A DNA stretch of 64,000 bases from Megasphaera micronuciformis F0359 (GTDB lineage Bacteria > Bacillota > Negativicutes > Veillonellales > Megasphaeraceae), in assembly GCF_000165735.1 (NCBI RefSeq), contig NZ_GL538177.1:1-64000 (forward strand), given 5' to 3'. The notes beneath the pieces were generated by a model. That model was not told where the DNA came from. It saw only the letters and a program-made list of their open reading frames with translations, and did not search any database. Positions 24,425-50,462 of the stretch are shown here, piece by piece. Every line of letters starts with the position of its first letter. Positions within the stretch are counted from its first letter, which is position 1. The translations under genes were made by a program, and so were the position numbers.

Positions 24425-25111
24425 TTATTCCGTCACGGCCTTGATCAAAGCTTCTACATGCACGTCCGTTACATCTACAACAGGCACAGATATATTCATC
24501 GTCTTGAAAAGAATCGGCAATTCCGTACATCCTAATATAAGCGTATCTATATGATGACTGCCAATCATTTCTTCAACAAGGTTCGAGAAATATTTTTGTG
24601 CCGTCTCCGTTATGCTTCCCGCTTCCAATTCTTTTTCTATAAATTTATGAACCTTCAACTGATCGGCTTCTTCAGGAACAATCGCTTCAATGCCCTTATC
24701 TCTAAAAGCCTTTTTGAAAAAGTCTTCTCTCATGGTAAACAAGGTACCTAACAACAAAGGCCTCTTAAGCCCTTGTTCTGCCACATAATGAGCTGTCACG
24801 GCTACACTGCTGACCAAGGGAACATGTGATTTTTCAGACAACTTGTCAAAGACGATATGCGGCGTATTGCCCGTCATAGCGACGACTTGTGCACCGCCTG
24901 CCACCAGATTGGTAATGCCCTTGTCCAAATACGCCGTAAGACCTGCATAATCCTTTTGGCCACAATAAGACAACACTCGATGAACATCTAGGCTCTCTAT
25001 AAGAAGTGGCGGAAACAGATTTTCCCGCTTATAAACTCTCTCGGTTATCTTTTTATAGTATAACAGCGTAGATTCGGGGCCGATACCGCCGATTAACCCT
25101 AATTTTTTCAT
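24425..25111 (-). CDS. Aspartate/glutamate racemase-family protein lacking the first catalytic residue
   Basis: A 228-residue protein of the Asp/Glu racemase superfamily, with GLIGGIGPEST at residues 5-15 and the second catalytic Cys in ILGCTELP (Cys195). The first acid/base residue, normally Cys or Thr in [CT]NT.H, is Gly81 here (MTGNTPH). A classical two-base racemisation is therefore doubtful; one-sided chemistry or another role is possible. Its start codon overlaps the hydF stop (ATGA), so it is translated with hydF. Whether it belongs to cofactor assembly or is a passenger cannot be told from sequence. Confidence 0.8.
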   Translation of the reverse strand: MKKLGLIGGIGPESTLLYYKKITERVYKRENLFPPLLIESLDVHRVLSYCGQKDYAGLTAYLDKGITNLVAGGAQVVAMTGNTPHIVFDKLSEKSHVPLVSSVAVTAHYVAEQGLKRPLLLGTLFTMREDFFKKAFRDKGIEAIVPEEADQLKVHKFIEKELEAGSITETAQKYFSNLVEEMIGSHHIDTLILGCTELPILFKTMNISVPVVDVTDVHVEALIKAVTE

Positions 25112-26316
25112 AACTTCTCCTTCAAAAAAGCCAATTCCGGAACAGCCTCTGCCGACCGTTCCAGAATACCGTTCATGTAGGCAATTAAAATGCCGTAGTT
25201 AACAATCGGCCTAAGTTGACGCTTAGCTTCTTTCGCTCTATATTTCATTTCTTTTTCGTTCAGCATACACCCGCCGCAATGAATGACCAAAGAATAGGGA
25301 CTCAAATCTTGCGGGAAAGTCATGCCGCTTGATGTTTCAATATGAATGTCTTTTCTCGTAAAGGTTTTAAGCCAACGCGGAATTTTCACCGTGCCGATAT
25401 CTTCACATTGTCGGTGGTGTGTACATCCTTCGGCAATAAGCACCGTATCCCCGTCGGCCAATCGTTTTACGGCATTAATGCCGGTTGTAAGAGCAGGCAA
25501 GATCCCCTTGTGACGAGCCATTAACACAGAAAAAGATGTCAATTTCAAATGCTTCGGGGCAATGGCGGCCACTTCTTTAAAAACCTGACTGTCCGTAATG
25601 ATAAAAACCGGTTCTTTGTTCAAAAGAGAAAGCGTTTCACCCAATCGTTTTTCATCCGTAACTACGGCTACGGCTCGAGCCTCTAAAATTTCGCGAATCG
25701 TTTGTTGTTGCGGCAAAATAAGGCGCCCCTTCGGCGCCGCCTTATCAATAGGCACGACAAGAACAACCGCATCGCCTTCATGAAGCAGATCTGAAATAAT
25801 AGGTGTCTCAATATCCCTTACCCCAACCAGACTGATCAGTCGTTCCTTAAGCTTATCAATACCGGTCTTTGCGACGGTGCTGACAAAGATTTCACGGCCT
25901 GTCTCTTCCTTGTCGCAATTCAACAAATCCGCCTTGTTTCTCACAATACAATACGGGATTTTTCTCTCTTTTACAAGGGCAATCAGCTCCTTATCCGATG
26001 GCGTAAGTGGCAGGGTACCGTCCGTTACGATAACGGCTATGTCCGTCTTACGTAATACCTCTTTAGTTTTTTCTATGCGTAAGAGGCCCACCTTACCCGC
26101 ATCGTCCAATCCCGGGGTATCTATTAATACGACAGGACCTAAGGGCAAAAGTTCCATAGCCTTATACACAGGATCCGTCGTCGTTCCCTTCACATCCGAC
26201 ACAATGGCCGTATACTGCCCCGTAACGGCATTGACCAAGCTAGATTTTCCCGCATTTCGATTACCGAAAAAACCGATGTGGATTCGCTCTCCTCTCGGCG
26301 TTTCATTCAGTCCCAT
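25108..26316 (-). CDS. hydF: [FeFe]-hydrogenase H-cluster maturation GTPase
   Basis: A 402-residue HydF, the scaffold that carries the diiron precursor and delivers it to [FeFe] hydrogenase. The N-terminal GTPase domain has P-loop GNRNAGKSS (18-26), switch GTTTDP, DTPG and NKADL. The C-terminal cluster-binding domain has the diagnostic CxH...HCxxC set: Cys298, His300, His346-Cys347 and Cys350 (EGCTHH and IHCGGC). Length and ligands are complete, so it is probably functional. Its usual partners HydE and HydG are not in the window; instead it is co-transcribed with HypCDEF and two NifH-like systems. It lies 11 bp after NifH-like 2. Confidence 0.96.
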   Translation of the reverse strand: MGLNETPRGERIHIGFFGNRNAGKSSLVNAVTGQYTAIVSDVKGTTTDPVYKAMELLPLGPVVLIDTPGLDDAGKVGLLRIEKTKEVLRKTDIAVIVTDGTLPLTPSDKELIALVKERKIPYCIVRNKADLLNCDKEETGREIFVSTVAKTGIDKLKERLISLVGVRDIETPIISDLLHEGDAVVLVVPIDKAAPKGRLILPQQQTIREILEARAVAVVTDEKRLGETLSLLNKEPVFIITDSQVFKEVAAIAPKHLKLTSFSVLMARHKGILPALTTGINAVKRLADGDTVLIAEGCTHHRQCEDIGTVKIPRWLKTFTRKDIHIETSSGMTFPQDLSPYSLVIHCGGCMLNEKEMKYRAKEAKRQLRPIVNYGILIAYMNGILERSAEAVPELAFLKEKL

Positions 26317-26327
26317 AGCCGTTTCTC

Positions 26328-27077
26328 CTATTCATTTCCGAGCAGGCGTTGCGCCAATTGTCTATATACGATACTTATATCGGAATCCGGTTCGCCTTCT
26401 ATAACCGTCATGCCTCGGTCTTCCCAAACTTGAATTTCTTTGCTTCTGGGAATATCCGCCAAAATAGGCAGATCTCTTTCGTCCGCAAAGGCTTTAACCC
26501 GCTCATACTCGTCTTCTACATTACGACGATTCAAAATAAGTCCTTTCACGCTCGCATAGCCGCGGTTTTGGAAGTTCTGTACAGCCTTATAAATATTATG
26601 AGCGGCATAAAGGGACATTTTTTCTCCCGATGTAACGATACAAACTTCTTCGGCATATCCGTCACGAATAGGGGCGGAAAAGCCGCCGCATACAACGTCT
26701 CCCAGGACATCGTACAAAACAATTTCGGGATTTATCTTTTCAAATACTTCCAATTCATCTATCAAATCGAAGGTGGCGATAATACCGCGTCCGGCGCAAC
26801 CGAGCCCCGGCGTGGGACCTCCCGTTTCCATACAAAAAACATGACCGAATCCGTAGGCTCCGATGTGTTTAAAATCGGGGGCTTCCGTATACTTGCGATA
26901 ATAGTCCATAACAGGCATGAGCGGCTTACCGCCCAATAAATTCATAGTCGAGTCGGCCTTCGGATCACACCCGATTTGAATAACTCTTTTTCCCATTCGA
27001 GCAAAGGCGGCAGCCAAGTTTGACGTAGTCGTCGATTTGCCGATACCGCCCTTACCGTATATAGCCAATTTTTTCAT
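26328..27077 (-). CDS. NifH-like Fe-protein ATPase, copy 2
   Basis: A 249-residue Fe protein of the NifH/BchL/CfbC superfamily, which uses ATP hydrolysis to pass electrons from a [4Fe-4S] cluster bridging two subunits. It has Walker [10 protein letters not shown] (8-16), GCDPKADST, cluster ligands Cys94 (GLGCAGRG) and Cys130 (GDVVCGGF), and NRR near residue 185. The ATG at 27077 has GGGAG upstream and starts directly at the P-loop strand. It is about 65% similar by eye to copy 1 at 36557-37312, but clearly a separate paralogue. It closes module 2 (C-D-H2) next to hydF. The partners are presumably component-1-like C and D. It is not evidence of nitrogen fixation. Confidence 0.9.
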
Positions 27078-27091
27078 AATATACTCCCGAA

Positions 27092-28327
27092 TTATAAATT
27101 CTTCGCCCATTCTTCAATAAATCCGCCAATAAAAAGCGGCATTTCATCCCTGTACCGACGGCCGGAATAGGCTTCATGAGGAAAAGATACGAACCGTTTC
27201 GCCTCTTTCGGTAACAGATGTGCGTAAATAGGGTCGGCTATAATTTTCTTTGCAGTCTTACAAACCTGCCGCAATTCATCTTCTACACTGATAATATCCA
27301 TATCTTTCAAAAGTAAATTCGGTGCATCCGCCAAGGGACAAATAAGACGAATATTTTCTATGCCTTTTTCAACTTCTAAATAACGACGCAAAGATAAAAT
27401 TCTCACAGGCTCGCCGATAAGCAGTATATCACAAGGCTCTTCGCTTTGTCGGCTCTCATTTTTCCATGCGTTGAGATCAGCCATGGCGAACTGTACCTTA
27501 CGTAATGACTCTTCTCCCGTAAGTCCCGTTAAATATGTCGAGTCACCGCTCTCCAAAGCCTTTAACCACGGCTCTACGGCAGCACGTCCTGCGGGAATTC
27601 CCACTACATAAGGAATATCATACTTTTCCTTCAGGTACTGGGCTGCATAAAAACCCGTAGAAGACACGACGGCATTAACATCCCCTTCGGCGGCAAGGGA
27701 CATATTTTCGAGAGAATCACCCATAGACCAGGATGAATGCACCTGAAGTCCCGCTTCTTCAATCAGCTTTTTCAGTTCCGTCGCATTACCGACAACGGAA
27801 AAATCCAGCGGTGTCAAGCCGAGTATATTGACTTTTACTGCCGGTTTTTGCGGCTTTACTCGCGGCGACTTTACAAATTCTTTTGCCAGCCGTAAGTAAG
27901 CTTCGCCGGCTCCGGGCAAATAACTGTGAATACCGTCTGTCCTGAAGGATAAAACGGGAAGGCCTGTACGTTGCCTCAAGATCCGTTCAATAGCCCGAAA
28001 ATCCGTACCTATAGCATTCGGCATGGGGCTACCGCCGACGGCAATAAAGACCGGACAAGTTTCTTCGGCAGCGGCCGCCACTTCGTCAATAAGACGCATA
28101 TCATTGCCCTGAATCGTGTCGATCTCACAAAGTCCCGAAATATATACCATAGACGGCGTGTCATACCAACGCGGTTCATCATGTGTACTGTACGTAGAAT
28201 TACATCCCGATGCGTCATGCATAACTACAAGACCGCCCAGTTCATATAAAGCTGACGCGATGCCGAACATATCAACCGCATAAGTAGACAATATTTGTTG
28301 TGCCTGTTTCACGCCCGACACCCCCAA
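27092..28327 (-). CDS. Nitrogenase component-1-like protein D (beta-type)
   Basis: A 411-residue protein of the nitrogenase component 1 / oxidoreductase fold. Candidate cluster ligands are Cys42 (DASGCNS), Cys67 (SGLCEID) and Cys91 ([12 protein letters not shown]), at spacings that recall the three P-cluster-type Cys of NifD/NifK. A DEPRWY motif follows at 50-55. Protein B (34228-35265) shares the DA.GC....DEPRW block, so B and D are paralogues. FeMo-cofactor ligands of NifD are not recognisable. It overlaps the gene for C by 19 bp, suggesting an obligate pair, and is followed by NifH-like 2. Confidence 0.82.
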
Positions 28328-29658
28328 GCCTTGATTTGAATAAGGGACTGTACGTCCTGCTCCGTCCCTGCACCGAGTATCATCATATCCATGAGCTTCA
28401 AAAGCCCCGTATATCCGTACAAGCCGCTGTTCTCAATAAGATTTACAAAATGTTTGGTCCCCGTAAAATAGGCTGCTTTTTGCCCGACAGCCAAGACGGG
28501 ACCGTGACGTTGTACCTCGTCTCTCGGTAAAAGGCGACGTTTATAATGCATAGTCGAACGTAATGACAGGCGGGGATAATGTTCTTTAAGAAAATAAAAA
28601 TCGGCCTCGTCGGCCCTATCGACCGCATCCAAATAAACGGCAAAGACATCTATATCATGAGTCAGCAAAAACCGTGCCAACGACAAGGGCCGCGGCGTGG
28701 CCGAGCAGTCAACGGCTACCCCCATTCCTTTTAAAGCGTCCTTAAGCTGCCTTGCCTTATTTGCAATTTTCTTTTCATACATATCGCAATCGGGCAAAGT
28801 CGCCCCGAAACGCTTCGCTGCCGTTTCTAAAAGTGAGCGTATCTCAAAAATATCATAAGAATAGGGCAGATATACAGCGTCTCTTTCCAATCTTCGAGCC
28901 GTATCTTCCGCTGCCGGACGAGAATTTTCCAAGAAAAAAATCTCCGCCTGCGCCGCCCCCAAATCCTTATAGTCGGCATAGGTTTTACAGTCTGCAAAAT
29001 CCCCGATTTCCCACCCGGCATCAACAAGCATTCGCACCAATTCCGATTCCTTGTCTACAGGATAATAGTTAACTATAAAGTTGACCTTTTTCCGTACGGG
29101 TAAAGCCGTAACGGCTCGCATCAGCTGGCGTCGACCCAACACATCGGGTGAATAGCGCCTTTGTAGCGTAGGAATCATATAACCGTCTATAAAATCGATG
29201 TCCGGAAACCTTTTTCGCAACTGTGCGTATACTAAATGTATATCAATATGCAAAAAATGTTGAATGCAACTTGTAAATCCTTCAACACACCTGGGTCGTT
29301 CGGGAAGATGTTCGACAATATGCGCAATCCCGTCTATCATCATTTCTTCCAAATTGCCTTTTATAATATTCTCGTTCGTCACCGTAACCGTTGAAAACCG
29401 TTCGGCTCCGCCTTCTATCTCATGAGCCGACAACACCACTCCGTGCAAACAACAAGCACAACAAACATAAACCTGATGGCATTGGGGAATCAAAAAAGGA
29501 GAATGGGCAATTGTCCAATGTCCGCGAGCTGGCGATGCATATTGAAGCCCTATATGAAAAGGCTTCGGATACGAAGCTTCGCCTATATCGATCTCCGCCC
29601 CGTCAGGTGCCACTCTTATAGTCGGTACCCTCGGTCTTATTTCATTTTCGTAAATCAT
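28309..29658 (-). CDS. Nitrogenase component-1-like protein C (alpha-type)
   Basis: A 449-residue component-1-like protein. It has an unusual Cys cluster VCCACC (Cys66, 67, 69, 70, with Cys60 just before) and a second site Cys124/Cys131 (CVEGFTSCIQ). These align by position with GPGCCG and MTC of protein A, so A and C are paralogues. The C terminus (YGYTGLLKLMDMMI) resembles A ([13 protein letters not shown]) and the equivalent NifD/K end helix. It lies 15 bp after hypE and overlaps D. The Cys-rich motif could bind a second or larger Fe-S cluster. The substrate is unknown. Confidence 0.78.
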   Translation of the reverse strand: MIYENEIRPRVPTIRVAPDGAEIDIGEASYPKPFHIGLQYASPARGHWTIAHSPFLIPQCHQVYVCCACCLHGVVLSAHEIEGGAERFSTVTVTNENIIKGNLEEMMIDGIAHIVEHLPERPRCVEGFTSCIQHFLHIDIHLVYAQLRKRFPDIDFIDGYMIPTLQRRYSPDVLGRRQLMRAVTALPVRKKVNFIVNYYPVDKESELVRMLVDAGWEIGDFADCKTYADYKDLGAAQAEIFFLENSRPAAEDTARRLERDAVYLPYSYDIFEIRSLLETAAKRFGATLPDCDMYEKKIANKARQLKDALKGMGVAVDCSATPRPLSLARFLLTHDIDVFAVYLDAVDRADEADFYFLKEHYPRLSLRSTMHYKRRLLPRDEVQRHGPVLAVGQKAAYFTGTKHFVNLIENSGLYGYTGLLKLMDMMILGAGTEQDVQSLIQIKAWGCRA

Positions 29659-29673
29659 AAAACCGACGCTCCT

Positions 29674-30678
29674 TTAACAAATACGGGGCAATAACTCTCC
29701 GCTCGGCGGCGGTAATATCGTTTCCGTTCCTATTTCCGTCGTCACGGTTACCGTACCGCTACGCCCATCCGTAACTTCCCCGATAATGGCGGCATCAACA
29801 GAATACGGCTGAGTATGTAACACGGCTACTGCCTGTTCTGCCGCTTCCGCCGGTACGACAAAGACCAACCGGCCTTCACAGGCAAGATATAAGGGTTCCA
29901 AGCCCAGCATGCCGCAAACCCCCTTAACGGCCGGTCGGACAGGTATGTCCTGTGCCGTCAGATGCATGCCCGTACCGCTTTGTGCCGCAATCTCATATAA
30001 CACGGTGCCGACACCTCCGCGCGTAGCGTCGCGTATGACATGTATGTTTTCTGTTTGCGCCAAAACGGCGGCGACAGTCCGATTCAGGGGAGCACAATCA
30101 CTGGTTATATCAGCTTCTATACCGAATGTATCTCGGGCCAATAAAATAGCACATCCGTGACGACCTATATCGCCGCTTACAATGATTTTATCGCCCGGTT
30201 GTGCCGCTGCCCCGGACAGACAAAGACCGTCACGAATCTCACCGATCCCCGTCGTCGTTATGAAGAGTTTATCTACCTGGCCCCTTCCGGCAACCTTAGT
30301 ATCACCGGCTACAATATGAACGCCTGCCTCAGCTGCCGTTATCGCCATGGCTGCCACATATCGTTCCAAGTCATCAAAGGGTAATCCTTCTTCAATAACA
30401 AAGGCGCACGTAAGGTACTTCGGCACGGCACCCAGGCAAGCCAAGTCGTTAACAGTACCGCAAATGCTCAACTTACCGATATTTCCGCCGGGAAAGTCCG
30501 GCGGTGACACGATAAATCCGTCCGTCGAGACAGCCAATCTATTCGTACTAGACGGTAATACGGCCGCATCATCGGCAGTAAACAGAGGATTCCCCAAATA
30601 TTTTTTAAAAATACGCTCAATCAACTCGGACGTCTTCGCACCGCCCGAACCGTGGGCCATTGTAATTGTTTCGCTCAT
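29674..30678 (-). CDS. hypE: Carbamoyl dehydratase HypE
   Basis: A 334-residue HypE, which dehydrates the carbamoyl group placed on its C-terminal Cys by HypF to thiocyanate, the source of the CN ligands. The AIRS/PurM-like fold begins with MAHGSGGAKTSELI, followed by the D.AAV metal/ATP region. It ends exactly with PRIC, so the essential terminal Cys334 is intact. The gene starts one base from the hypD stop with GGAGG. It is part of a complete hypFCDE set without hypA or hypB. Confidence 0.96.
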   Translation of the reverse strand: MSETITMAHGSGGAKTSELIERIFKKYLGNPLFTADDAAVLPSSTNRLAVSTDGFIVSPPDFPGGNIGKLSICGTVNDLACLGAVPKYLTCAFVIEEGLPFDDLERYVAAMAITAAEAGVHIVAGDTKVAGRGQVDKLFITTTGIGEIRDGLCLSGAAAQPGDKIIVSGDIGRHGCAILLARDTFGIEADITSDCAPLNRTVAAVLAQTENIHVIRDATRGGVGTVLYEIAAQSGTGMHLTAQDIPVRPAVKGVCGMLGLEPLYLACEGRLVFVVPAEAAEQAVAVLHTQPYSVDAAIIGEVTDGRSGTVTVTTEIGTETILPPPSGELLPRIC

Positions 30679-31722
30679 TTATATACCTCCGTACCTGTAA
30701 AAGGCAGAACATGTACCTTCTCCCGACACCATACACGCTCCTACGGGATGTTCAGGTGTACACCCTTTACCGAATACGGGACACTCGGTAGGCATACACT
30801 TGCCTTGCAACACGTCGCCGCAACGGCAAGCCGGGTTTTCCTTGCCTGCAATATGAGGCATCGAATATTTTATACGACTGTCAAAGTCGATAAAAGACTT
30901 TTTTAATTTCATGCCCGATTGTGCAATAATACCGAGGCCTCTCCATTGCGAATCACAAGGTTCCATAAACCTATCTACAACGGCACGTCCGTTAGGGCTC
31001 CCTTCCGGTCGCACAATGCGGGGATAGCAATTAACAAAGTAAGGTCTGCCTTCTTGCGTTTTCTTGACTATAAAAGCCAAGGCCGTAATCAACTCGGCAG
31101 CCGTAAAACCGGCAACTACCCCCGACGTACCGCGCCGAGCCAAGTCTTCACAAACGGCGGTCCCGCTGACGGCATGGACGTGTCCGGGGTACAAAAAGGC
31201 GTCACAACTTCCGCGCATAGCTTCATATGCTTGAGGCATCGTTTTATTAGCCGTCAATAGAGAAAAATTCGTCAGCCCCTCCGATGCCGCCGCTGCTACG
31301 GCAATACAAGCCCCGGGTGTCGTCGTTTCAAAGCCGACAGCCAAAAAGACTACTTCCTTATCCTTGTTCGCCGCCGCATACTCATAGGCATCATAAGGTG
31401 AATAAACGACTCGTACATCGGCACCCCGAGCCCTGGCATCGCTCAACGTCTCGCTTGACCCGGGAACTCGCAATAAATCCCCGAAGGTACAGACCGTAAC
31501 CCCTCTTTCTCGGGCCAACCACAAGGCCTCGTCAATAAAAGCTACGGGGGTTACGCATACGGGACAACCGGGGCCGGAGACCAGCTCCATATGAGGGGAG
31601 AGTAATTTCCGTATACCCAGCCTGAAGATTTCGTGCGTATGCGTTCCGCATACTTCCATAATACGAATCTTCGGCCCCTTATATGACATAACGAGCCGTT
31701 TGGCTCCTTCCAAATCCGCCAT
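30679..31722 (-). CDS. hypD: Fe-CN/CO assembly protein HypD
   Basis: A 347-residue HypD, the Fe-S protein that with HypC assembles the Fe(CN)2CO unit. Conserved features are CGTHTHEI (Cys25), GPGCPVC (Cys53, Cys56), GFETTTP and a Cys-rich C terminus (CRCGDVLQGKC...CPVFGKGC) that holds the [4Fe-4S] cluster. The start codon overlaps the hypC stop (TAATG), which makes HypC and HypD translationally coupled as expected for complex partners. Confidence 0.96.
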   Translation of the reverse strand: MADLEGAKRLVMSYKGPKIRIMEVCGTHTHEIFRLGIRKLLSPHMELVSGPGCPVCVTPVAFIDEALWLARERGVTVCTFGDLLRVPGSSETLSDARARGADVRVVYSPYDAYEYAAANKDKEVVFLAVGFETTTPGACIAVAAAASEGLTNFSLLTANKTMPQAYEAMRGSCDAFLYPGHVHAVSGTAVCEDLARRGTSGVVAGFTAAELITALAFIVKKTQEGRPYFVNCYPRIVRPEGSPNGRAVVDRFMEPCDSQWRGLGIIAQSGMKLKKSFIDFDSRIKYSMPHIAGKENPACRCGDVLQGKCMPTECPVFGKGCTPEHPVGACMVSGEGTCSAFYRYGGI

Positions 31723-31928
31723 TATAAATCCTCCAGCAATTCCGTTGTTTCTTCAATGTCATCGGAGCTGATTTTAGCAATAGCCGTCCCGGCGTGAACC
31801 ATAACATAATCGCCCGGATCAAGATTTTCAATGAGTTCCGCCGATACTTGTCGCCGGGCTCCCGCCGCGTCGACCAGTGCTATATTCCCCTTCACCTTCA
31901 CGACTTTCGCCGCCAATCCTACACACAT
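31722..31928 (-). CDS. hypC: HypC/HupF-family chaperone
   Basis: A 68-residue HypC with the N-terminal MCVG whose Cys2 (exposed after Met removal) carries the Fe(CN)2CO intermediate together with HypD. The short beta-barrel sequence (GDYVMVHAGTAIAKI) and acidic C terminus are typical. It overlaps hypF by 10 bp and hypD by 1 bp. In [NiFe] systems HypC delivers to the large subunit; no large subunit is encoded here, so its client may differ. Confidence 0.95.
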   Translation of the reverse strand: MCVGLAAKVVKVKGNIALVDAAGARRQVSAELIENLDPGDYVMVHAGTAIAKISSDDIEETTELLEDL

Positions 31929-34231
31929 GTTCTTTCTCCTTTTTGTAACTTAATCATAGCTGCCAAGGCCTGTCCCAAAGCAATTCCGCCGTCATTCGTC
32001 GGTACGAGACGGTGCGTATATACTGTAAATCCTGCCGTTTCCAAATAGGCGCGACTTAATCGTAAAAGCAGGGTGTTTTGAAAAACACCGCCACTCAGAC
32101 ATACTTTTGAAAGTCCTGTTTGTTTGCGAACAGCTTCAGCTCCCTTGCACAAAAGACCTGCCGTTCCCTTATGAAATAAGTAAGCACAATAATTAACACT
32201 TGCTCCCTTATCAAATAGTTCTGTCACTTGTTTTACCAAGTCCAACAGATCCAATATAAGCCGTCCGTCTCTTTTTTCAACAAAAAGATTCAAGGGCGCC
32301 TCTTCACCCGCCTTACCTTGTTCATAGGCTTCCGCCGCAAATTGGAGCTTCATAGCACCTTCGCCTTCAAAGGTTGAAGCCCGACACACTCCCAATAAGG
32401 CGCTCATACCGTCAAAGAAACGACCGACTGATGTGGAAATACAGGTATTGACACCTTGAGTCAGCATAAACAATTGCACTGCAGCCTCTTGCGGAGTACA
32501 CAACGAGAGGTCGCTCGCCAGATGACGAACGGCATCTTTCCCGTACAGTGCATACAAAAACGATAAGGCTGATCGCCATCCGTCTCGCACAGCTGCATCA
32601 CCGCCGGCATGAAGAAAGGGACTGACAGAGCCTACGCGTGTAAATCCGTCATACGAGACTTGTAATAATTCGCCGCCCCAAATCGTTCCGTCCGTACCGT
32701 ACCCGGTCCCATCCAAAGCTATGCCGATAACTTCATCAGAGCAGCCGTTTTCCGCCATACACGAGAGAATATGTGCATAATGATGTTGTACGGAAATGAC
32801 GGGGATTTGGGCCTGTTTAACCAACTGCGACGACTCATAGGCCGGATGTATATCCGTAGCACCGCATTGCGGAGTAATCTCCAATAAGTCCCGCAACCGT
32901 ACGGCACATTCATGTTGTGCCGTTTCCGTCCGCACACAACCTACATCCCCGATATGCGGTGAAAGATAAAAAAGATTATCCTTCGCCAAGCAAACCGTAT
33001 TCTTTAATTCTCCCCCGGCCGAAAGCACGGTGCCGTGAAAATCGCCGTTCACATGAATCGGTAAAGGGGCATAGCCGCGCGAACGACGAATCATATACGG
33101 CTCATCTGCACTGACTGTAACAACCGAATCGTCTACACGTAATAAAATATCCCTGTCATGAGATAAGATGAGGTCGCATAAGCCCGGTAAGTCCGTACGG
33201 ACTTCTTCATCAGTCCGACAAATAGGCATACCGCTTCGATTGGCACTGGTCATAACCAATAAATCGGGCATATGTAAACCGTCATTATAAGAAAACAGGA
33301 GAAGCTGTAAGGGGGCATACGGAAGCATAACTCCCATATACGGATTGTCGGGTGCCACAGATGCAGCAGCCTTACCGCCAATCCGTCGTTTCATGAGAAC
33401 AATCGGTCTTTCATAGCTCGTCAGTAATTCTTCGGCGGCACGAGTGACTACACACTCTCGCTTCGCCGTCTCAAGATCAGCAGCCATAACGGCAAAAGGC
33501 TTAACCGGACGCGGTTTCAGGCGTCTTAGTCGACTGACAACCGCTTCGTTCGTGCCGTCGCAACAAAGATGAAATCCTCCGATACCTTTGACCGCAATAA
33601 TCTTCCCTTGACGGATTGCTTCCCGTGCCGCCCTAATCGCCTGATGTCCGTAAATTTCCGTGCCGACCACATATACTTGCGGGCCGCATTCGTTGCAGCA
33701 TACGGGTTGGGCATCATAGCGACGTGAATTGGGATCCGTATACTCTTTTTCACAAGACGGACACATGGGAAAGTTATTCATACACGTTCGTTCCCTATCA
33801 TAGGGCATAGCCTTCATGACGGTCAGTCGCGGCCCGCAAGCCGTACAGTTAATGAAAGGATGTAAATAGCGACGGTCCGACGGATCAAAGAGCTCCCTTT
33901 TACATTCATCACAAATGCCGATATCGGGCGATACAAAAATATGTCCCTTATCAGGGGTGCTCTCAATAATGGAAAAGCCGCTTAACAAATCGGCCTTGTC
34001 TATATAATCCGTTTCCATACCCATAATTTGAGAACGCGGCGGAGCTTCATCTCGCAAAGCATGTAAGAAAAAGTACTCTTCTTTTGCCGGCACGGCCATG
34101 ATAACTTCCACATAGGAGCCGCGATTACTCACGGTTCCTACAATACCGCAACGTTTTGCCAAACGACTGACAAAAGGTCTGAATCCCACGCCCTGTACAA
34201 TGCCGAAAATACGAATTCTCAAAGCCTTCAC
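31919..34231 (-). CDS. hypF: Carbamoyltransferase HypF
   Basis: A 770-residue HypF that activates carbamoyl phosphate with ATP and transfers the carbamoyl group to HypE. Domain order: acylphosphatase-like (GIVQGVGFRPF at about 10-20), two zinc fingers (CDEC...CTAC and CPSC...CNEC, about 108-190), YrdC/Sua5-like (about 200-385) and a Kae1-like C-terminal domain with the HHYAH metal site near residue 482. It is full length. It overlaps the preceding component-1-like gene B by 4 bp, tying cyanide synthesis to the NifH-like module. Confidence 0.96.
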   Translation of the reverse strand: MKALRIRIFGIVQGVGFRPFVSRLAKRCGIVGTVSNRGSYVEVIMAVPAKEEYFFLHALRDEAPPRSQIMGMETDYIDKADLLSGFSIIESTPDKGHIFVSPDIGICDECKRELFDPSDRRYLHPFINCTACGPRLTVMKAMPYDRERTCMNNFPMCPSCEKEYTDPNSRRYDAQPVCCNECGPQVYVVGTEIYGHQAIRAAREAIRQGKIIAVKGIGGFHLCCDGTNEAVVSRLRRLKPRPVKPFAVMAADLETAKRECVVTRAAEELLTSYERPIVLMKRRIGGKAAASVAPDNPYMGVMLPYAPLQLLLFSYNDGLHMPDLLVMTSANRSGMPICRTDEEVRTDLPGLCDLILSHDRDILLRVDDSVVTVSADEPYMIRRSRGYAPLPIHVNGDFHGTVLSAGGELKNTVCLAKDNLFYLSPHIGDVGCVRTETAQHECAVRLRDLLEITPQCGATDIHPAYESSQLVKQAQIPVISVQHHYAHILSCMAENGCSDEVIGIALDGTGYGTDGTIWGGELLQVSYDGFTRVGSVSPFLHAGGDAAVRDGWRSALSFLYALYGKDAVRHLASDLSLCTPQEAAVQLFMLTQGVNTCISTSVGRFFDGMSALLGVCRASTFEGEGAMKLQFAAEAYEQGKAGEEAPLNLFVEKRDGRLILDLLDLVKQVTELFDKGASVNYCAYLFHKGTAGLLCKGAEAVRKQTGLSKVCLSGGVFQNTLLLRLSRAYLETAGFTVYTHRLVPTNDGGIALGQALAAMIKLQKGERTCV

Positions 34232-35265
34232 AACGAAGTCCTCCCCGATACGGCAAAGTGCGGAAAATCAACAAAGAGGCCTTTAAACTTTCCGGTTGCC
34301 CGCTTTAAAAAGATATCGGCAAAGATGACCTGGAAGGAATTTTCTTCTATTAGACGTAAAAAATCGTCTTCTTCCGCCAAATGCACATCCTTTTCCTTCA
34401 TCAGTTCACGCGGTGCCGAAAACCAGGTCGCCGTCATTACGTCCGCCCCTCTTTCAGCCAACTCGTCTGCTAATTGTCTGGCCGCCACCTGTTGATGTAC
34501 GACTAGAACACGTTTACCCTTCCAATCGTCAAGCACCTTAGTCTCATGGCCCTGCAAAGGGTATATACATTCATACGGGGTACCGAACTTTTTACAAGCA
34601 TAAACCGCCGCCTCGAGCCCAGACGGTGATAAAACCAGATTTAACGTGTTTTCACAAGCTCTTTGCAACGGCTCCAAGCCTTCTTCTCCGTAAATATGAA
34701 CCTCATCCCAGCCTTTATGCAAAAGTTGCTCTTTAATGCGTTCTCTATCTTGAGGAAATACGCAGTCCAAGGGAGTCGCTCCGAAAATACCGACACTGTT
34801 GTCTTGCCTTTTCCCCGTTTCTTTTGCAAAAGTTTTTAAAAGCTCTTTATAGGCTAAGGCTTCTCCTTTATCATAGTATTCCGTTCCCGTCGTTTCTACG
34901 GTTATAATCGGTTTTTGAATACGCTTTTCCGCCAATCTGCGTAGGCCTCTATAATCCGTGGCAATAACGGCCGGTACAGGAGTCCCTATAATAGCGGCAA
35001 AATCCGCATCTATATCCTCGGCCACAGATGCCAATTTATCCACCAAGCGGTCGTCCCGCCCCAAAATAGCGTCCATATCACGCAAACCGGCACTGAACAC
35101 GGCACTCCTTTGTGAAAACCAACGCGGTTCATCAAACCCGCAAATATTTCCGGCACAACCGCCGGCATCACAGACAACTATGATGCCGCCCAGCCCGTAT
35201 AAGACTGCCCCGGCACCGGATTGATCGGGTGCAAAGGGGGATATGTATTTCCACAAACCCTTCAT
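34228..35265 (-). CDS. Nitrogenase component-1-like protein B (beta-type, short)
   Basis: A 345-residue component-1-like protein, paralogue of D, sharing the DA.GC and DEPRW blocks. Candidate ligands are Cys32, Cys37 and Cys42 (VCDAGGCAGNICG). The position of the third ligand in D (Cys91) is Ala here (DIDADFAAIIGT), and Cys67 of D is also absent, so its cluster must be bound differently from D's. It is shorter than D, mainly at the C terminus. ATGA overlaps on both sides (with A and hypF) indicate tight coupling. It is presumably the partner of A and NifH-like 1. Confidence 0.78.
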   Translation of the reverse strand: MKGLWKYISPFAPDQSGAGAVLYGLGGIIVVCDAGGCAGNICGFDEPRWFSQRSAVFSAGLRDMDAILGRDDRLVDKLASVAEDIDADFAAIIGTPVPAVIATDYRGLRRLAEKRIQKPIITVETTGTEYYDKGEALAYKELLKTFAKETGKRQDNSVGIFGATPLDCVFPQDRERIKEQLLHKGWDEVHIYGEEGLEPLQRACENTLNLVLSPSGLEAAVYACKKFGTPYECIYPLQGHETKVLDDWKGKRVLVVHQQVAARQLADELAERGADVMTATWFSAPRELMKEKDVHLAEEDDFLRLIEENSFQVIFADIFLKRATGKFKGLFVDFPHFAVSGRTSL

Positions 35266-36560
35266 ATCCTATGCCCCTCCATGGCTCTTGTCATTTCATG
35301 AAACAGGGTTGTCACCCCTCTATGTCCGAAAGGTTGAATCTCCTGATTCCAAAAAACATGTGCCGCCTTCGGGTGATAATATGCTGCATCCTTTCCGATT
35401 GCCAGGTCAATACTCTCATCGTCTTTATAGTGCAGCATCGTCGGAGACAGGTTGGAGTACACCTTAATACTTCCGTTTGTCTCTGCAAGTTGGCGCAGAC
35501 GCACAAAAGATTCCGCTGTTACAGTTCCGTAAATCTCCCGTACGTCCAATCCGTACTTACTCAAAGCGGCGGCCATATCAAAGGCATCTCCGTTCATCAT
35601 TTCTCCTATGGCTACTCGTACCGGCCCGTATTTTTTAAGAAATTCTTCAGCAGTTGCTTCCGCCTCATCCTTATACGGTCTGTCATCAAGAGATACCCCT
35701 ATAACCTTAGAAAAAATGCCGTACTGCTTATGTATTTTCTCCGTATCATACATGCGGGTCAATTCTATACTCGGTATTTGTAAACGTTCTTCCATATCCT
35801 GTGCCGCCAACCGTGATTCAGGGTGAAGGACGAGATTAAAATTGGCCTCACTCATGGCAAGATATTCATCAAAATCGTCGCAACGAGAAATCTCCCGAAT
35901 ATGCTTTACTCCGGCTTGCTTTAACAGGTCATATAGCTCGCAGTCATCCTGTAATGGTGAAAAATACCCGAGAAGATTTACAGCATCACCGCGACGTTTT
36001 CGTGACTTCAAGAGCGAATAAACAGCTTGCCGTACGGCTACCATCGGCGGTTTTCGACCTTCTCTAGTTAAGGCATACATATAGCAAGGAACGACAGGAA
36101 TCCCTGCTTCATTTGCCGCCTTTCGACAGACGCGCTCCATATCCGTTCCTAAGAGAGCATCAACGCAGGTCATACAGACCATGACGACTGACGGTGCTTT
36201 TTCCGAGCTCTCGCAAATTTCTCTAATGGCCTGAGGAATTTTCTGCAAATGACGACTCGTAATAATATCCGTTTCGTCCATTGTATAGAAGAAAAAACGG
36301 TCACTATAGCCGCTCATTTCACTTAAAATCGTCGTATTCCGACCGCAACATCCAGGTCCCACGAGAAGCATAATCGAGCCGGGAATGGCCAGCCCCGCTC
36401 TTTTTACTCCGAATCCTTCCGCCCCCGGCGAATTAAAGACCAAGGAGGCAGGCGAATTGTAGATTACATGCTCAGTCGAAATAAGTTCGGCAGGAATACG
36501 TTCCGGTCCTGCCGCCGCTAACTCAGCTACGGTTTTGTAAAAAGCCGCTTTCTGCATCAT
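35262..36560 (-). CDS. Nitrogenase component-1-like protein A (alpha-type)
   Basis: A 432-residue component-1-like protein, paralogue of C. It has [10 protein letters not shown] (Cys71, Cys72), like the GP.GC P-cluster motif, and [14 protein letters not shown] (Cys129, Cys132), which matches the third P-cluster position of NifD/NifK (TC....GDD). The C terminus [13 protein letters not shown] resembles the corresponding helix in C and NifD/K. It overlaps NifH-like 1 and B by 4 bp each. I infer an A/B heteromer served by NifH-like 1. The reduced substrate is unknown. Confidence 0.8.
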
Positions 36561-37312
36561 ACTTTTTCTCCTATCAAGGCTTCGGCTATGGATAAGAAGT
36601 TACGGCTGATAGGCAGGGTTCTATCCCCTTCAATAACGGTACAACCTTCTTCTTCAAAGCGAGAAATGTCATCATTGCGCGGAATATCACCGATAATCGA
36701 CAAACTCCGTTCGCTTGCAAAAGCCTTAACCTTATCCTCTTCACCGGGAATGTTCCGACGATTAAAAATAATGCCTCTCATACGAGCATAACTGCGATCC
36801 TCAAAATTCTGCACAGCCCTGTAAATATTATCGGCAGCATAGAGTGACATCTTTTCACCCGATGTAACGATAATAACGTCTTTGGCATAACCCTCACGAA
36901 TGGGTGCCGCAAATCCGCCGCAAACGACATCACCCAAAACGTCGTACAAGACGACGTCGGGCTTATATATATCAAAGAGACCTAAATCTTCTAAAAGGGC
37001 AAAAGTAGCTACAATGCCGCGGCCGGCACACCCCAGCCCGGGCGTAGGTCCACCTGTTTCAATGCACAAGACCCCGCCGAAACCGATTTCGGAAATGTCT
37101 TCAATCGATTCCGGCTCTTCGCCCTTCTCGCTCATATAGTTCATAACAGGCTGCAACAAATGGCCGCCCAAAAGATTCAGTGTCGAATCGGCCTTCGGGT
37201 CACAGCCGATTTGAATAACCTTTTTGCCTAAACAGGCAAAAGCCGCCGCCAAATTGGATGTCACCGTCGATTTACCAATGCCGCCCTTACCGTAAATTGC
37301 AATCTTTAACAT
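36557..37312 (-). CDS. NifH-like Fe-protein ATPase, copy 1
   Basis: A 251-residue Fe protein with Walker [10 protein letters not shown] (8-16), GCDPKADST, cluster ligands Cys95 (GLGCAGRG) and Cys131 (GDVVCGGF), and the switch region YDVLGD. All residues needed for ATP-gated electron transfer are present. It lies 10 bp after the TM1266-type gene and overlaps component-1-like A, forming module 1 (H1-A-B). It is the mirror-position paralogue of copy 2. Its redox donor is probably ferredoxin or flavodoxin, reduced for example by PFOR (inference). Confidence 0.9.
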
Positions 37313-37322
37313 AAACCTACCC

Positions 37323-37577
37323 CTATTCCGGTAACCTTGCGTAAATGGTTTTTGAACTTACGTGCTTTATCATACCCAACTTACCGGCAACGGCACTGAT
37401 TACGGACTGGGGGGCATCCATAGTAATACTGATAATAGATATCCCTCGTTCTTTATAAGGTAATCCCATACGCCCGATAATATATTCTCTGTAATCGTGA
37501 AAAACGGCATTGATCTTTTCCGCCGCCCCGTCGTCGCTGACAATAATACCGATAAGAGCTACTCTAGTTTCATCCAT
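37323..37577 (-). CDS. TM1266-family iron-only hydrogenase system putative regulator
   Basis: An 84-residue ACT-like/NikR-C-like small protein. It opens with [12 protein letters not shown], followed by [19 protein letters not shown] and [11 protein letters not shown]. This matches the TM1266 family that occurs next to [FeFe]-hydrogenase maturation genes and is annotated as a putative regulator. It has no DNA-binding domain. It is the first gene of the operon, with ATAAGGAG upstream of the ATG, and its presence is independent support for a link to [FeFe] hydrogenase. Confidence 0.88.
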
Positions 37578-37592
37578 AGCTACTCCTTATAC

Positions 37593-37620
37593 AAAAAATC
37601 CCTGCGCAAATCGCAGGGAT
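37593..37620 (-). terminator. Leader terminator (attenuator) of the hydrogenase-type operon
   Basis: ATCCCTGCG and CGCAGGGAT form a perfect 9-bp stem with a 5-nt loop and then six T on the minus strand. It ends only about 16 bp before the first ATG, so it must be bypassed for the operon to be expressed. This is typical of riboswitch or attenuator control. Confidence 0.8.
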
Positions 37621-37738
37621 AGAGTCATCACATAGAAGACGAACCTTATTTACATGAGCTTATCATTGTAAACGAGGCCATACGGATATAGTTGTCCATG
37701 CGGTTTGCCGTCAGGCCGTTCCTTTCGACTCACCTATT
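37593..37738 (-). promoter_or_regulatory. Structured 5' leader, candidate riboswitch of unrecognised class
   Basis: From the expected start (about 37738) the minus-strand RNA can fold as follows. A closing helix GAGUC/GACUC, extended by AUA/UAU, ends right before the terminator. Inside are GGCC/GGCC enclosing CGG-CAAA-CCG and AUGGA/UCC(GU)AU arms (a three-way junction) and a 9-bp hairpin UUUAC.AUGA/UCAUGUAAA. I cannot match it to a class I know (TPP, FMN, cobalamin, SAM, c-di-GMP, Moco, glycine, THF and ZTP do not fit by eye). The ligand is unknown. Confidence 0.55.
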
Positions 37739-37744
37739 GCCTAC

Positions 37745-39247: not shown

Positions 39248-40270
39248 CTATTTTTGTAACTGTGCTACTTTAGCCTGTAGTTCTTTATTTTCTTCACGAA
39301 GTTGACGCATTTCCCGTTCCATAGCATCCATTCTTTCCGCCAAATCGGAATCCTGCCGAACGGAAGGTTCCCCTTCTTTTCCGACTCGGAAGGTAGCTCC
39401 TATATTGGCCGACAATTTGTGGCTGTCACCGAAATTCGATGCCGCTCCGAAGGAAAGCATCAAGTCACGGGACGCATTGTAAAATCCGCCCATAGCTACG
39501 GCTTTTTTCCCGTCATAGGAACCTAAGGCTGCCGCAATCTGGAATTTCGATTCACTTCCCGTGTAATCTAAAGGATGTAGTCCTGCCAGAGCTGCCGAGG
39601 CGGCACCGACATTTTTAATTTCTTTACTCAAGCCACCGGTCATATTTGCCCCGTATTGATACAGCTGATTACCTGTTACAGCATCATGAGATCCTGCAGC
39701 AATACGTCCATCCGCTACGTTAACAATCCGTCGTTGTGTCGTATCGTTGCCGACAGACACAACATTGGTTTCTGCCGCCGTACTGCCGCCGCCGATAGCA
39801 ATACTCCCGTTACCGGTGACGGAAGCATTATGCCCCATAGCCAGCCCTTCTACGGCATTAACATTGGCACCGTTACCGATAGCTGCCGCATAATCTTTCT
39901 TAGCTACCGCATTAGCCCCGAAGGCTGTACCGTTTCTACCCGTATTCGTATTTAAACCAAAGTTCGTCCGTTCGCCGCGAATGACAACACGTGCCGTATC
40001 GGGTGCACCGTTACCTAAGTTATCGGGTACATGACGTCCGCCATGTACAGGATATGAATCAGGTGCATAATTCGAATCGGGTGTCAAAAGAACACTGGCT
40101 CCTGTCGTCGCATCAACACGAGTTCTGCCGGCTGTCGCCTGACCCGGCGTCGCCTGACCGATCAAAACACTGGCTGCCGAATCTATTTGCGGCGCCGCCG
40201 CACAAACTACCCCTCCAATTACGGCACAAGCCGTAAGGGTCGCACAAATACGCATACTCTTATTTCTCAT
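39248..40270 (-). CDS. YadA-like trimeric autotransporter adhesin with C-terminal coiled coil
   Basis: A 340-residue outer-membrane protein. A signal peptide covers residues 1-25 (hydrophobic, AAA end). A conserved N-terminal region (GRTRVDATTGAS...VVIRGERTNFGLNTNT) precedes YadA head repeats (AIGNGANVNAVEGLAMGHNASVTGNGSIAIGGG), the neck NVVSVGNDTTQRRIVNVADG and the YadA anchor barrel (about 215-290, LHPLDYTGSESKFQIAAALGSY...SANIGATFRVG). Unlike classical TAAs, the barrel is not the C terminus: about 50 residues follow, ending in a strong heptad coiled coil (MDAMEREMRQLREENKELQ). Upstream there is a promoter with a Fur-box-like palindrome. A paralogue without the barrel lies next door. Confidence 0.87.
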   Translation of the reverse strand: MRNKSMRICATLTACAVIGGVVCAAAPQIDSAASVLIGQATPGQATAGRTRVDATTGASVLLTPDSNYAPDSYPVHGGRHVPDNLGNGAPDTARVVIRGERTNFGLNTNTGRNGTAFGANAVAKKDYAAAIGNGANVNAVEGLAMGHNASVTGNGSIAIGGGSTAAETNVVSVGNDTTQRRIVNVADGRIAAGSHDAVTGNQLYQYGANMTGGLSKEIKNVGAASAALAGLHPLDYTGSESKFQIAAALGSYDGKKAVAMGGFYNASRDLMLSFGAASNFGDSHKLSANIGATFRVGKEGEPSVRQDSDLAERMDAMEREMRQLREENKELQAKVAQLQK

Positions 40271-40900: not shown

Positions 40901-41596
40901 TTACTTTCCGTTTTTTAAAGCTTCAAGAGCTTGTCTTAATGCTTCATTTTCTTTACGCAATTCCGTAACTTGCTGTGTCAACGCATACAATTGGTTGCCC
41001 GTTACGACATCATTCGAGCCGAAAGCCACGGTCCCGTCGGCAACATGGGTTATCTTACGAACTCCCTTGTCACTGCCGACGGATACGGTATTAACCGTAT
41101 CGGCAATACTACCTGCTCCGAGTGCCACACTGTTATCCGCCGTAACGGAAGCTCCATGCCCCAAAGATAATCCGTCTTCCGCCTTAACAGCCGCCTTATT
41201 GCCGAATGCCGCTGCATAGTTACCCTTAGCTTTAGCTCCCGCCCCTACAGCCGTACCGTTTTTAGACGTGTTCGTATTCAAGCCGAAGTCTGTCCGTTCA
41301 CCACGAATGACAACACGAGCCGTCGCAGGTGAATCGGGTTTCAAATTATCGGGTACTCGTCTACCGTCTCTTTCAGGATAAGAAAGAGGCCCGTAATTTT
41401 GATCAGGCGTAATCATAATACTGGCCCCTGCCGTCGCATCTACACGAACCCGTCCGGCCGCTTCCGTTCCGGTAGCCCCACCGATACTGATAACCGCACT
41501 CGGGTCGGCAAATTGAGTTCCCGCAGCCAATCCCGTAATAGCCGAAAAACAAAGACCTGCAATTAAGCCGACCGACGTTACCTTACGTAGTTTCAT
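40901..41596 (-). CDS. YadA-head-like secreted protein lacking the membrane anchor
   Basis: A 231-residue paralogue of the adjacent adhesin: signal peptide, the same RVDATAGAS...ARVVIRGERTDFGLNTNTS block, YadA head repeats and neck (NTVSVGSDKGVRKITHVADG). After VTGNQLY, where the paralogue continues into its beta-barrel anchor, it has only a short coiled coil (VTELRKENEALRQALEALK) and stops. The ATG at 41596 follows GGAGGGTG and gives a regular signal peptide; the in-frame ATG at 41623 lacks a site. It may trimerise but cannot insert by itself, so it is either released, periplasmic or held by a partner. Confidence 0.82.
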   Translation of the reverse strand: MKLRKVTSVGLIAGLCFSAITGLAAGTQFADPSAVISIGGATGTEAAGRVRVDATAGASIMITPDQNYGPLSYPERDGRRVPDNLKPDSPATARVVIRGERTDFGLNTNTSKNGTAVGAGAKAKGNYAAAFGNKAAVKAEDGLSLGHGASVTADNSVALGAGSIADTVNTVSVGSDKGVRKITHVADGTVAFGSNDVVTGNQLYALTQQVTELRKENEALRQALEALKNGK

Positions 41597-41693
41597 AACA
41601 ATCACCCTCCACTCGCTATTCATTAATTATTCTCAAGTAATTATAGCAAGTTCAGACAGCTAAATAAAGTCTGACCGGGAAAATCCGGCAAAC

Positions 41694-50334: not shown

Positions 50335-50462
50335 CGTGTGTAACAGCTTGCCGGGTTACCTCGTGGCACACGAAGATGACTACTTATCGCTGCTTCCTCT
50401 CGGACCTGACGAGGTTCATAGGTCTCCATTGCACAAGCCCCGACAGGCTGTCACGCACCAAT
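50335..50462 (-). ncRNA. ffs: Signal recognition particle RNA (small bacterial type)
   Basis: The minus strand contains the SRP domain IV signature: CGTCAGGTCCGAGAGGAAGCAGCG, here split as the GGTCCG tetraloop arm and the AGGAAGCAGC loop, at about 50384-50412. Flanking arms (GACAGC with GCTGTT, and others) close a rod-like structure. A TATAAT (50479-50484) with TTGTCT at 17-bp spacing lies upstream and a terminator lies downstream. The position upstream of dnaX is common in Firmicutes. Ends are approximate. Confidence 0.88.

Follow-up and report, generated by a model that had tools for sequence, protein, structure and literature searches.

A cluster of 12 genes on contig NZ_GL538177.1 of Megasphaera micronuciformis F0359 (assembly GCF_000165735.1), within the 64,000 nucleotides that are called the window here (positions 1 to 64,000, forward strand), is, with a probability of about 0.85, a pathway that replaces HydG in the synthesis of the [2Fe] part of the H-cluster of [FeFe]-hydrogenases. 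The cluster occupies positions 37577-25108 of the minus strand in the order TM1266-NifH1-E1-N1-HypF-HypC-HypD-HypE-K-D-NifH2-HydF, where NifH1 and NifH2 (H1 and H2) are NifH-like Fe proteins and E1, N1, K and D are subunits resembling nitrogenase component 1. HydG is held to supply the carbon monoxide (CO) and the cyanide (CN) of the H-cluster, and HypCDEF are the only other source of Fe-CN-CO units known to us. The direct basis of this reading lies in the gene content and its conservation, the co-occurrence with HydA and HydF, the lack of HydG and of a [NiFe] large subunit in the family of the host, the retention of HydE and the intact catalytic residues. We infer the functional replacement of HydG from co-occurrence, which supports it well, as we infer the chemistry and the order of its steps.

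Occurrence of the operon, HydA, HydE and HydG

The first-pass annotation of the window had proposed an alternative route of [FeFe]-hydrogenase maturation that joins Hyp proteins, NifH-like systems and HydF and dispenses with both HydE and HydG. In the host genome (G000 in our labelling, in which G, C and L denote genomes, contigs and loci; 1.76 Mb, 98.3% complete), the genome-wide picture that it anticipated for hydA, hydG and [NiFe] hydrogenase was confirmed. HydA is present as a protein of 485 amino acids with the three H-cluster motifs TSCCPAW, TPCTAKKAE and EFMACQGGCINGGGQP, a single HydF exceeds its cut-off, and profile searches of the genome found neither a HydG above cut-off nor a [NiFe] large subunit (PF00374). 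The absence of HydE from the genome had to be abandoned, since a HydE gene scoring about 319 bits (318.7-319.6) against a cut-off of 254.6 lies outside the operon on contig C11; HydE is thus not a missing piece of the system. The best HydG-like match turned out to be ThiH, as it reaches 503.8 bits with the ThiH model and 187.5 with that of HydG (cut-off 312.15) and adjoins a ThiF gene. The host also encodes on contig C10 (L202:4143-5429) a further [FeFe] hydrogenase protein, group-B-like and 428 amino acids long, with 298.9 bits against a group B cut-off of 450.

A survey of the order covered 61 genomes, distributed among the family of the host (f1, 17 genomes including the host), f4 (28 genomes) and f2 and f3 (16 genomes together). 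In f1, where the Anaeroglobus geminatus record and several Megasphaera records belong by the identical coordinates of their matches, 16 of 17 genomes have a strong match to the operon E1, and the same 16 have HydA above cut-off. Neither HydG above cut-off nor a [NiFe] large subunit (PF00374) was found in any of the 17. HydE exceeds its cut-off in 14, and G015 adds a 15th in which the gene is split, so that it is only the HydG step that would be replaced. The remaining genome, G020, lacks E1, HydA, HydE and HydG. Family f4 presents HydA, HydE, HydG and the [NiFe] large subunit in 28/28 genomes each and E1 in none (no match at 1e-3), and two of its [NiFe]-bearing regions, when examined for the reference Hyp proteins, contained none. 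In f2 and f3 no genome has HydA, HydE or HydG above cut-off, E1 matches are weak (1e-4 to 1e-6, five genomes), and three f2 genomes contain 70-residue PF00374 matches above the Pfam cut-off. The proposal of the first-pass annotation therefore survives in part: HydA accompanies the operon in 16 of 16 genomes and the family lacks HydG and the [NiFe] large subunit, whereas HydE is retained.

Beyond the order, scanning a single genome for each GTDB 220 species with the E1 alignment yielded 339 stretches confirmed by tblastn. Among the best 80, which were examined, the carriers belong to Megasphaera, Anaeroglobus, Blautia, Roseburia, Coprococcus comes, Eubacterium ramulus, Anaerobutyricum, Anaerostipes and Ruminococcus bicirculans, to Clostridium (C. 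ljungdahlii, C. ragsdalei, C. drakei and C. muellerianum) and to metagenome-assembled genomes whose own records label them Coriobacteriaceae, Atopobiaceae, Lentisphaeria and Synergistaceae. HydG was searched for in the genomes of 50 of the 80 loci, with preference for isolates and long contigs, and 49 lacked a match above cut-off. The remaining HydG-family matches at 1e-40 score 169-228 bits, like the ThiH of the host, and no such match reaches 1e-40 in C. ljungdahlii.

The relationship between the operon and HydG was also addressed in an evenly drawn sample of 293 genomes from the class to which C. ljungdahlii belongs, with E1 in 10 and HydG above cut-off in 190. HydA was detected at E <=1e-90 in 250 of them (247 above cut-off), and these divide into 170 with HydG, 10 with the operon, none with both and 70 with neither (Fisher p 7.5e-6, uncorrected for relatedness). 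All ten carriers have HydA and HydF and none has HydG. A search for HydF in the ten carriers and the 70 genomes with neither HydG nor operon recovered it in 7 of the latter. The 70 were discarded as plain counter-examples, as 63 of them are devoid of HydF too and three of the other seven carry H2-K-D. Altogether, at least one of the two nitrogenase-like modules occurs in 13 of the 17 genomes with HydA and HydF and without HydG. The 63 genomes (of 293) with a HydA-family hydrogenase and without HydG, HydF or operon say little on H-cluster assembly because HydF is lacking as well. Locus L182 (G385 C1:431001-451000) shows, by eye, a conventional nif-like cluster with NifB-, NifV- and GlnB-like genes beside hydA.

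Conservation of the locus was assessed by tblastn in the 46 of 80 loci with at least 9 kb on either side of E1. E1, N1, HypF, HypC, HypD, HypE, K and D are complete in 45, the other locus (L145) stopping early, and the string E1-N1-HypF-HypC-HypD-HypE is uninterrupted in all 46, with a NifH immediately before E1 in 45. TM1266 accompanies them in 37 loci, HydF in 14 and HydE in 7; HydA and HydG were found in 0 of the 46 stretches each. Across the 80 loci, HydE is present in ten, all of them above its cut-off (320-577 bits). The H2-K-D genes stand after HypE or ahead of H1, and a single NifH per stretch characterizes five Coriobacteriaceae-labelled loci and L098. Clustering of the unassigned open reading frames (ORFs) of 84 loci revealed no convincing further member, with an ORF picker that dropped genes in GC-rich loci. 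Queries with E. coli HypA and HypB drew no match in 81 stretches, namely the window plus the 80 loci; for HypA this is a weak result, because the E. coli HypC query found only 22 of the 81.

Composition of the operon and its two modules

Genes in the window were assigned by Pfam and NCBIfam profile searches, with curated bit cut-offs for the NCBIfam models. The 12 genes are tightly spaced, distances between neighbours ranging from -19 to +15 nucleotides. The series opens with a putative regulator of the iron-only hydrogenase system of the TM1266 family (37323..37577; TIGR03959, 106.9 bits, cut-off 60.8), followed by NifH1 (36557..37312; PF00142, 7.7e-84), E1 (35262..36560; PF00148, 2.9e-31) and N1 (34228..35265; PF00148, 7.3e-19). 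The Hyp genes come next: the HypF carbamoyltransferase (31919..34231; TIGR00143, 754.2 bits), HypC (31722..31928), the HypD scaffold (30679..31722; TIGR00075, 371.7 bits) and HypE (29674..30678; TIGR02124, 415.6 bits). HypC has 68 amino acids and 32% identity to E. coli HypC; being shorter than the 70-residue ORF length filter, it was added by a separate look. The second module consists of K (28309..29658), which has no Pfam or NCBIfam match, D (27092..28327; PF00148, 7.1e-28) and NifH2 (26328..27110; PF00142, 4.1e-85), whose closest PDB sequence is the nitrogenase iron protein 1cp2 and whose start is probably an internal ATG. The last gene encodes the H-cluster maturation GTPase HydF (25108..26316; TIGR03918, 543.6 bits, cut-off 325.55). 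As the first-pass annotation had stated, this is a single coupled operon with these limits and gene identities and without HydE, HydG, HypA or HypB within it. Its attribution to the operon of a HydF with all cluster ligands, a complete HypF-C-D-E set, two Fe proteins with their ATPase and [4Fe-4S] residues and four component-1-like proteins was likewise upheld by the profile scores, residues and fold matches described here.

Regarding residues, HydF contains its P-loop at residue 18 and the cluster motif C-x-H...C-x2-C at residues 298-350. HypF, HypD and HypE all exceed their curated cut-offs (754, 372 and 416 bits). When the Hyp proteins are compared with their E. coli K-12 counterparts, HypD retains C25/53/56/301/309/314/321/338, which include those of CGxH (CGTH here), GPGCPVC and the C-terminal cluster, and HypC Cys2, the C-terminal PRIC of HypE and the eight zinc-finger cysteines of HypF are all retained; a few other cysteines are not, such as C82, C275 and C316 of HypD. 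PRIC forms the C-terminal end of all 23 operon HypE proteins read. With the roles that we take these residues to have, the route from carbamoyl phosphate to cyanide looks intact in the operon.

The nitrogenase-like proteins form a group well apart from the curated Nif families. Both Fe proteins possess a P-loop, the two cluster cysteines and DVVCGGF, and score 289.1 and 298.6 bits with the NifH model, whose cut-off is 394.35; NifE model scores do not exceed 67.6 bits against a cut-off of 505.1, and the NifD cut-off is not reached either. E1 has NifE as its closest PDB sequence (1e-14), and the cysteine of its CMTCVDAL aligns with that of TCVPAL in NifE. Thirteen sequences of each subunit share an invariant CCGRN in E1 and an invariant GGCAGN in N1. 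PF00148 recognizes E1, N1 and D, three of the four component-1-like proteins. The fourth, K, matches NifE at the profile level with an E value of 2e-6 over the whole sequence, no single stretch being significant. The predicted structures of E1 (predicted local distance difference test score, pLDDT, 79) and K (pLDDT 84.0, predicted template modelling score 0.84) match nitrogenase and NifEN chains, in the case of K with Foldseek E values down to 1.6e-16 and a template modelling score of about 0.6, and these models point to a component-1 fold in both. In two relatives K and D share one open frame of 842-852 amino acids (L139:6727-9252, L149:6680-9235).

These genes belong to two separable modules, since E1-N1 travels with hypFCDE and NifH2-K-D can stand alone. 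The order is HydE-H2-K-D-ATP-binding cassette (ABC) transporter-HydF-TM1266 in G304 (L179). In G171 (L180), H2-K-D, an ABC transporter and HydE form one gene string, while a second HydE lies next to HydF on a different contig, and G236 (L181) shows TM1266-ABC permease-ATPase-(TM1266)-H2-K-D-lipoprotein. All three clusters have an ABC permease and ATPase of the iron/B12 type. Such arrangements tie K-D to HydE and HydF, and E1-N1 to the Hyp proteins.

Overlapping hydF by 4 nucleotides, an Asp/Glu-racemase family gene (24425..25111, minus strand; TIGR00035, 147.1 bits) is at most cotranscribed with the operon. It shows no sign of membership in the system, and at a threshold of E 1e-4 the 80 loci, many of which stop near hydF, yielded no relative. 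Upstream of the operon, YadA-type trimeric autotransporter adhesin domains are encoded at 39248-40270 and 40901-41623.

A possible route to the [2Fe] precursor and competing explanations

In the route that we propose, HypF and HypE would convert carbamoyl phosphate into cyanide, and HypC and HypD would assemble or hold an Fe(CN)(CO) unit. NifH1 and E1-N1 may contribute low-potential electrons, a scaffold or both. Most likely this would serve to make the CO ligand or ligands, for instance from CO2, which nitrogenase Fe proteins are able to reduce to CO, or else to reduce the Fe-CN-CO unit or edit it. The nitrogenase-like modules would thereby do what Hyp proteins alone cannot: supply a second CO, remove or avoid the second CN, or both, and lower the oxidation state. 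NifH2 and K-D would pass the Fe unit onward, HydE would join two units and HydF would deliver the [2Fe] precursor to HydA; this order of steps is a guess. In its complete form, the proposal gives the H-cluster a second biosynthesis in nature, with CN derived from HypF and HypE instead of tyrosine and HydG, CO made by Fe-protein-driven reduction at an iron centre, two NifEN-like scaffolds, and HydE and HydF as finishing steps. For this version the odds seem to us about even.

Several observations weigh against the replacement of HydG by the operon. At the chemical level, the unit known from HypCD is Fe(CN)2CO, with two CN on its Fe, against a single CN on each Fe of the H-cluster. C. drakei, the only one of the 50 carriers with HydG above cut-off, has it together with the operon, and G024 (78% complete) has the operon and HydA and no HydE match above cut-off. 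The co-occurrence counts are not tree-corrected, and the class sample includes C. ljungdahlii itself, as its centre. G304, G171 and G236 have H2-K-D and no E1 or Hyp genes in the stretches read, so that the system may at times work without Hyp proteins; additional stretches of G304, G236, G397 and G250, short of whole genomes, were also found to be without Hyp genes. Finally, G250, G349, G352 and G397 (L222-L225) have HydA and HydF, no HydG and no match to the E1 profile at 1e-8, a threshold at which this profile does detect K in G171, G236 and G304. The absence of HydG must therefore have at least one further cause, and these four genomes possibly use a further route; HydE adjoins HydF in G250, G352 and G397.

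The cluster could instead make a different Fe-CN-CO metallocofactor for another enzyme, HydF, HydE and TM1266 being its neighbours by chance or through shared regulation. Nitrogenase-like enzymes with diverse substrates would be compatible with this, as would the iron/B12-type permease and ATPase in the three H2-K-D clusters. We consider it improbable, given that the carriers tested have HydA (16/16 in the family, 10/10 in the class sample) and HydF (10/10 in the class sample) and lack HydG, and that the operon, HydA and HydE are all absent from G020.

Appreciably less credit is due to a scenario raised in PMC9431212, in which HydE and HydF alone mature HydA with free cellular CO and CN, and the operon would only tune the process or handle cyanide. 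HydF made with HydE and without HydG does activate HydA, to about 1% (PMC9431212). Nevertheless, it can be argued that so weak a route would hardly maintain a large operon across many lineages; furthermore, the cyanide-making C-terminus of HypE is kept in 23 of 23 proteins, and an active [FeFe]-hydrogenase of Megasphaera elsdenii is cited (PMC12874204).

The least probable explanation, that the Hyp genes serve or remain from a [NiFe] hydrogenase and the nitrogenase-like genes travel with them without any functional link, can point to an intact HypCDEF, which is the known [NiFe] set and is listed as [NiFe] maturases in PMC9431212, but it is contradicted in the family by the absence of PF00374 from all 17 genomes, on which ground it was rejected, and is further opposed by the lack of HypA and HypB in the 81 stretches (with the weakness of the HypA queries already mentioned) and by the consecutive E1-N1-HypFCDE of 46/46 loci from records labelled Firmicutes, Coriobacteriaceae and Lentisphaeria.

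If HydG is indeed replaced by this operon, the H-cluster has two biosyntheses, and it becomes clear why many gut species, and acetogens such as C. ljungdahlii, do without HydG. An orphan clade of nitrogenase-like proteins would gain a role, and a tyrosine-independent route to active [FeFe]-hydrogenase would become available. In the complete form of the proposal, hundreds of species would combine the Hyp assembly line of [NiFe] hydrogenases, the NifEN line of nitrogenase and the Hyd line of [FeFe]-hydrogenases in a single pathway, with a new regulatory RNA in some of them. The source of CO in the anaerobic Hyp route is, to our knowledge, unsettled, and the operon provides a natural setting in which to seek it.

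Leader RNA, earlier reports and known systems

Upstream of the operon, a structured leader RNA is predicted at 37594..37744 (minus strand) as an attenuator or riboswitch candidate, with an intrinsic terminator at 37620-37598. It spans about 150 nucleotides between the TM1266 gene and a promoter-like site at 37773-37745, sites of this kind being no commoner than in shuffled sequences. Thirteen leaders of the family were aligned (L018 was left out of the alignment and later found by the covariance model), and compensatory changes affect 21 of the 27 predicted pairs among 12 leader sequences. The strand GAAAGCAC is able to pair with the 5' arm of the terminator in 7 of the 12, the leader of the window not being one of these. 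Beyond its training set, the covariance model matches other loci of the family. It also gives weak matches, with E values that are rough, upstream of maturation genes (HydE, TM1266, NifH) in three E1-less genomes of Clostridia: L179:7116-7235 (6.8e-6), L225:12486-12613 (minus strand, 0.0017) and L180:8466-8567 (minus strand, 0.0039). Comparably weak matches near hydA (L055, 0.0044; L054, 0.0092; L056, 0.013) may be terminators only, so the one in L180 is not safe. A CTGACGG motif in two Blautia loci was rejected as a leader, since it lies in a stretch that looks locally repeated (L125 has two copies) and neither locus was matched by the model. The leader matches no Rfam family, the sole Rfam match in the window at gathering threshold being the bacterial small signal recognition particle RNA (RF00169) at 50346-50445 (minus strand). 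The leader is thus far a riboswitch candidate for the H-cluster maturation genes.

In the conventional pathway, HydG produces Fe(CO)2(CN)Cys units, HydE joins two of them into [Fe2(SH)2(CO)4(CN)2] and HydF carries the precursor (PMC12933642, PMC11736057). In 2022, a comparison of eight Clostridium acetogens reported that all of them have HydE and HydF, that five have no HydG and that five have HypCDEF but neither HypA nor HypB, both absences being left open in the passages concerned, which also raise an atypical radical S-adenosylmethionine candidate and the use of free CO and CN (PMC9431212). The same paper lists HydE, HydF and HypCDEF, and no HydG, HypA or HypB, for both C. ljungdahlii and C. 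ragsdalei; these two species carry the operon. A bifurcating [FeFe]-hydrogenase has been isolated from C. autoethanogenum (PMC6288185), to which a HydG with an atypical motif is assigned (PMC9431212). Ten years earlier, Dos Santos et al. (2012) had devoted one speculative sentence to two linked NifHEN-like copies beside hydrogenase maturation genes in Coprococcus catus, and had described two conserved cysteines in the NifD/E-like protein and one in its NifK/N-like partner, similarly in Coprococcus catus and Dorea longicatena (PMC3464626). The claim of the first-pass annotation that no system of such composition had been described thus holds only in part: the association was noticed in 2012, whereas a replacement of HydG by the cluster in [FeFe] maturation was not found in our searches of open-licence PMC papers.

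The cluster of Coprococcus catus is very probably the same as the one described here, judging by the linked double NifHEN-like copies, the maturation proteins and the similar cysteine pattern, although the passages concerned name neither the loss of HydG nor HydE, HydF or [FeFe]-hydrogenase (PMC3464626). With the NifH-NifEN scaffold the operon shares an Fe protein and a two-subunit component-1-like scaffold, with E1 closest to NifE among solved sequences and cluster-type cysteines in E1 and N1; it differs in lying far under the curated Nif cut-offs, in having no NifB or structural nitrogenase gene within the operon and in the 10-20% identity of its fold matches. The HypABCDEF system of [NiFe] hydrogenases has in common with it HypC, HypD, HypE and HypF with the catalytic residues checked, but neither HypA nor HypB turned up around the operon, the family yielded no [NiFe] large subunit, and the Hyp genes are here joined to NifH/NifEN-like genes. 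Finally, like the HydEFG system, it is accompanied by HydF, HydE, TM1266 and HydA and presumably leads to the same H-cluster, whereas carriers without HydG have, in its stead, HypCDEF and two nitrogenase-like modules.

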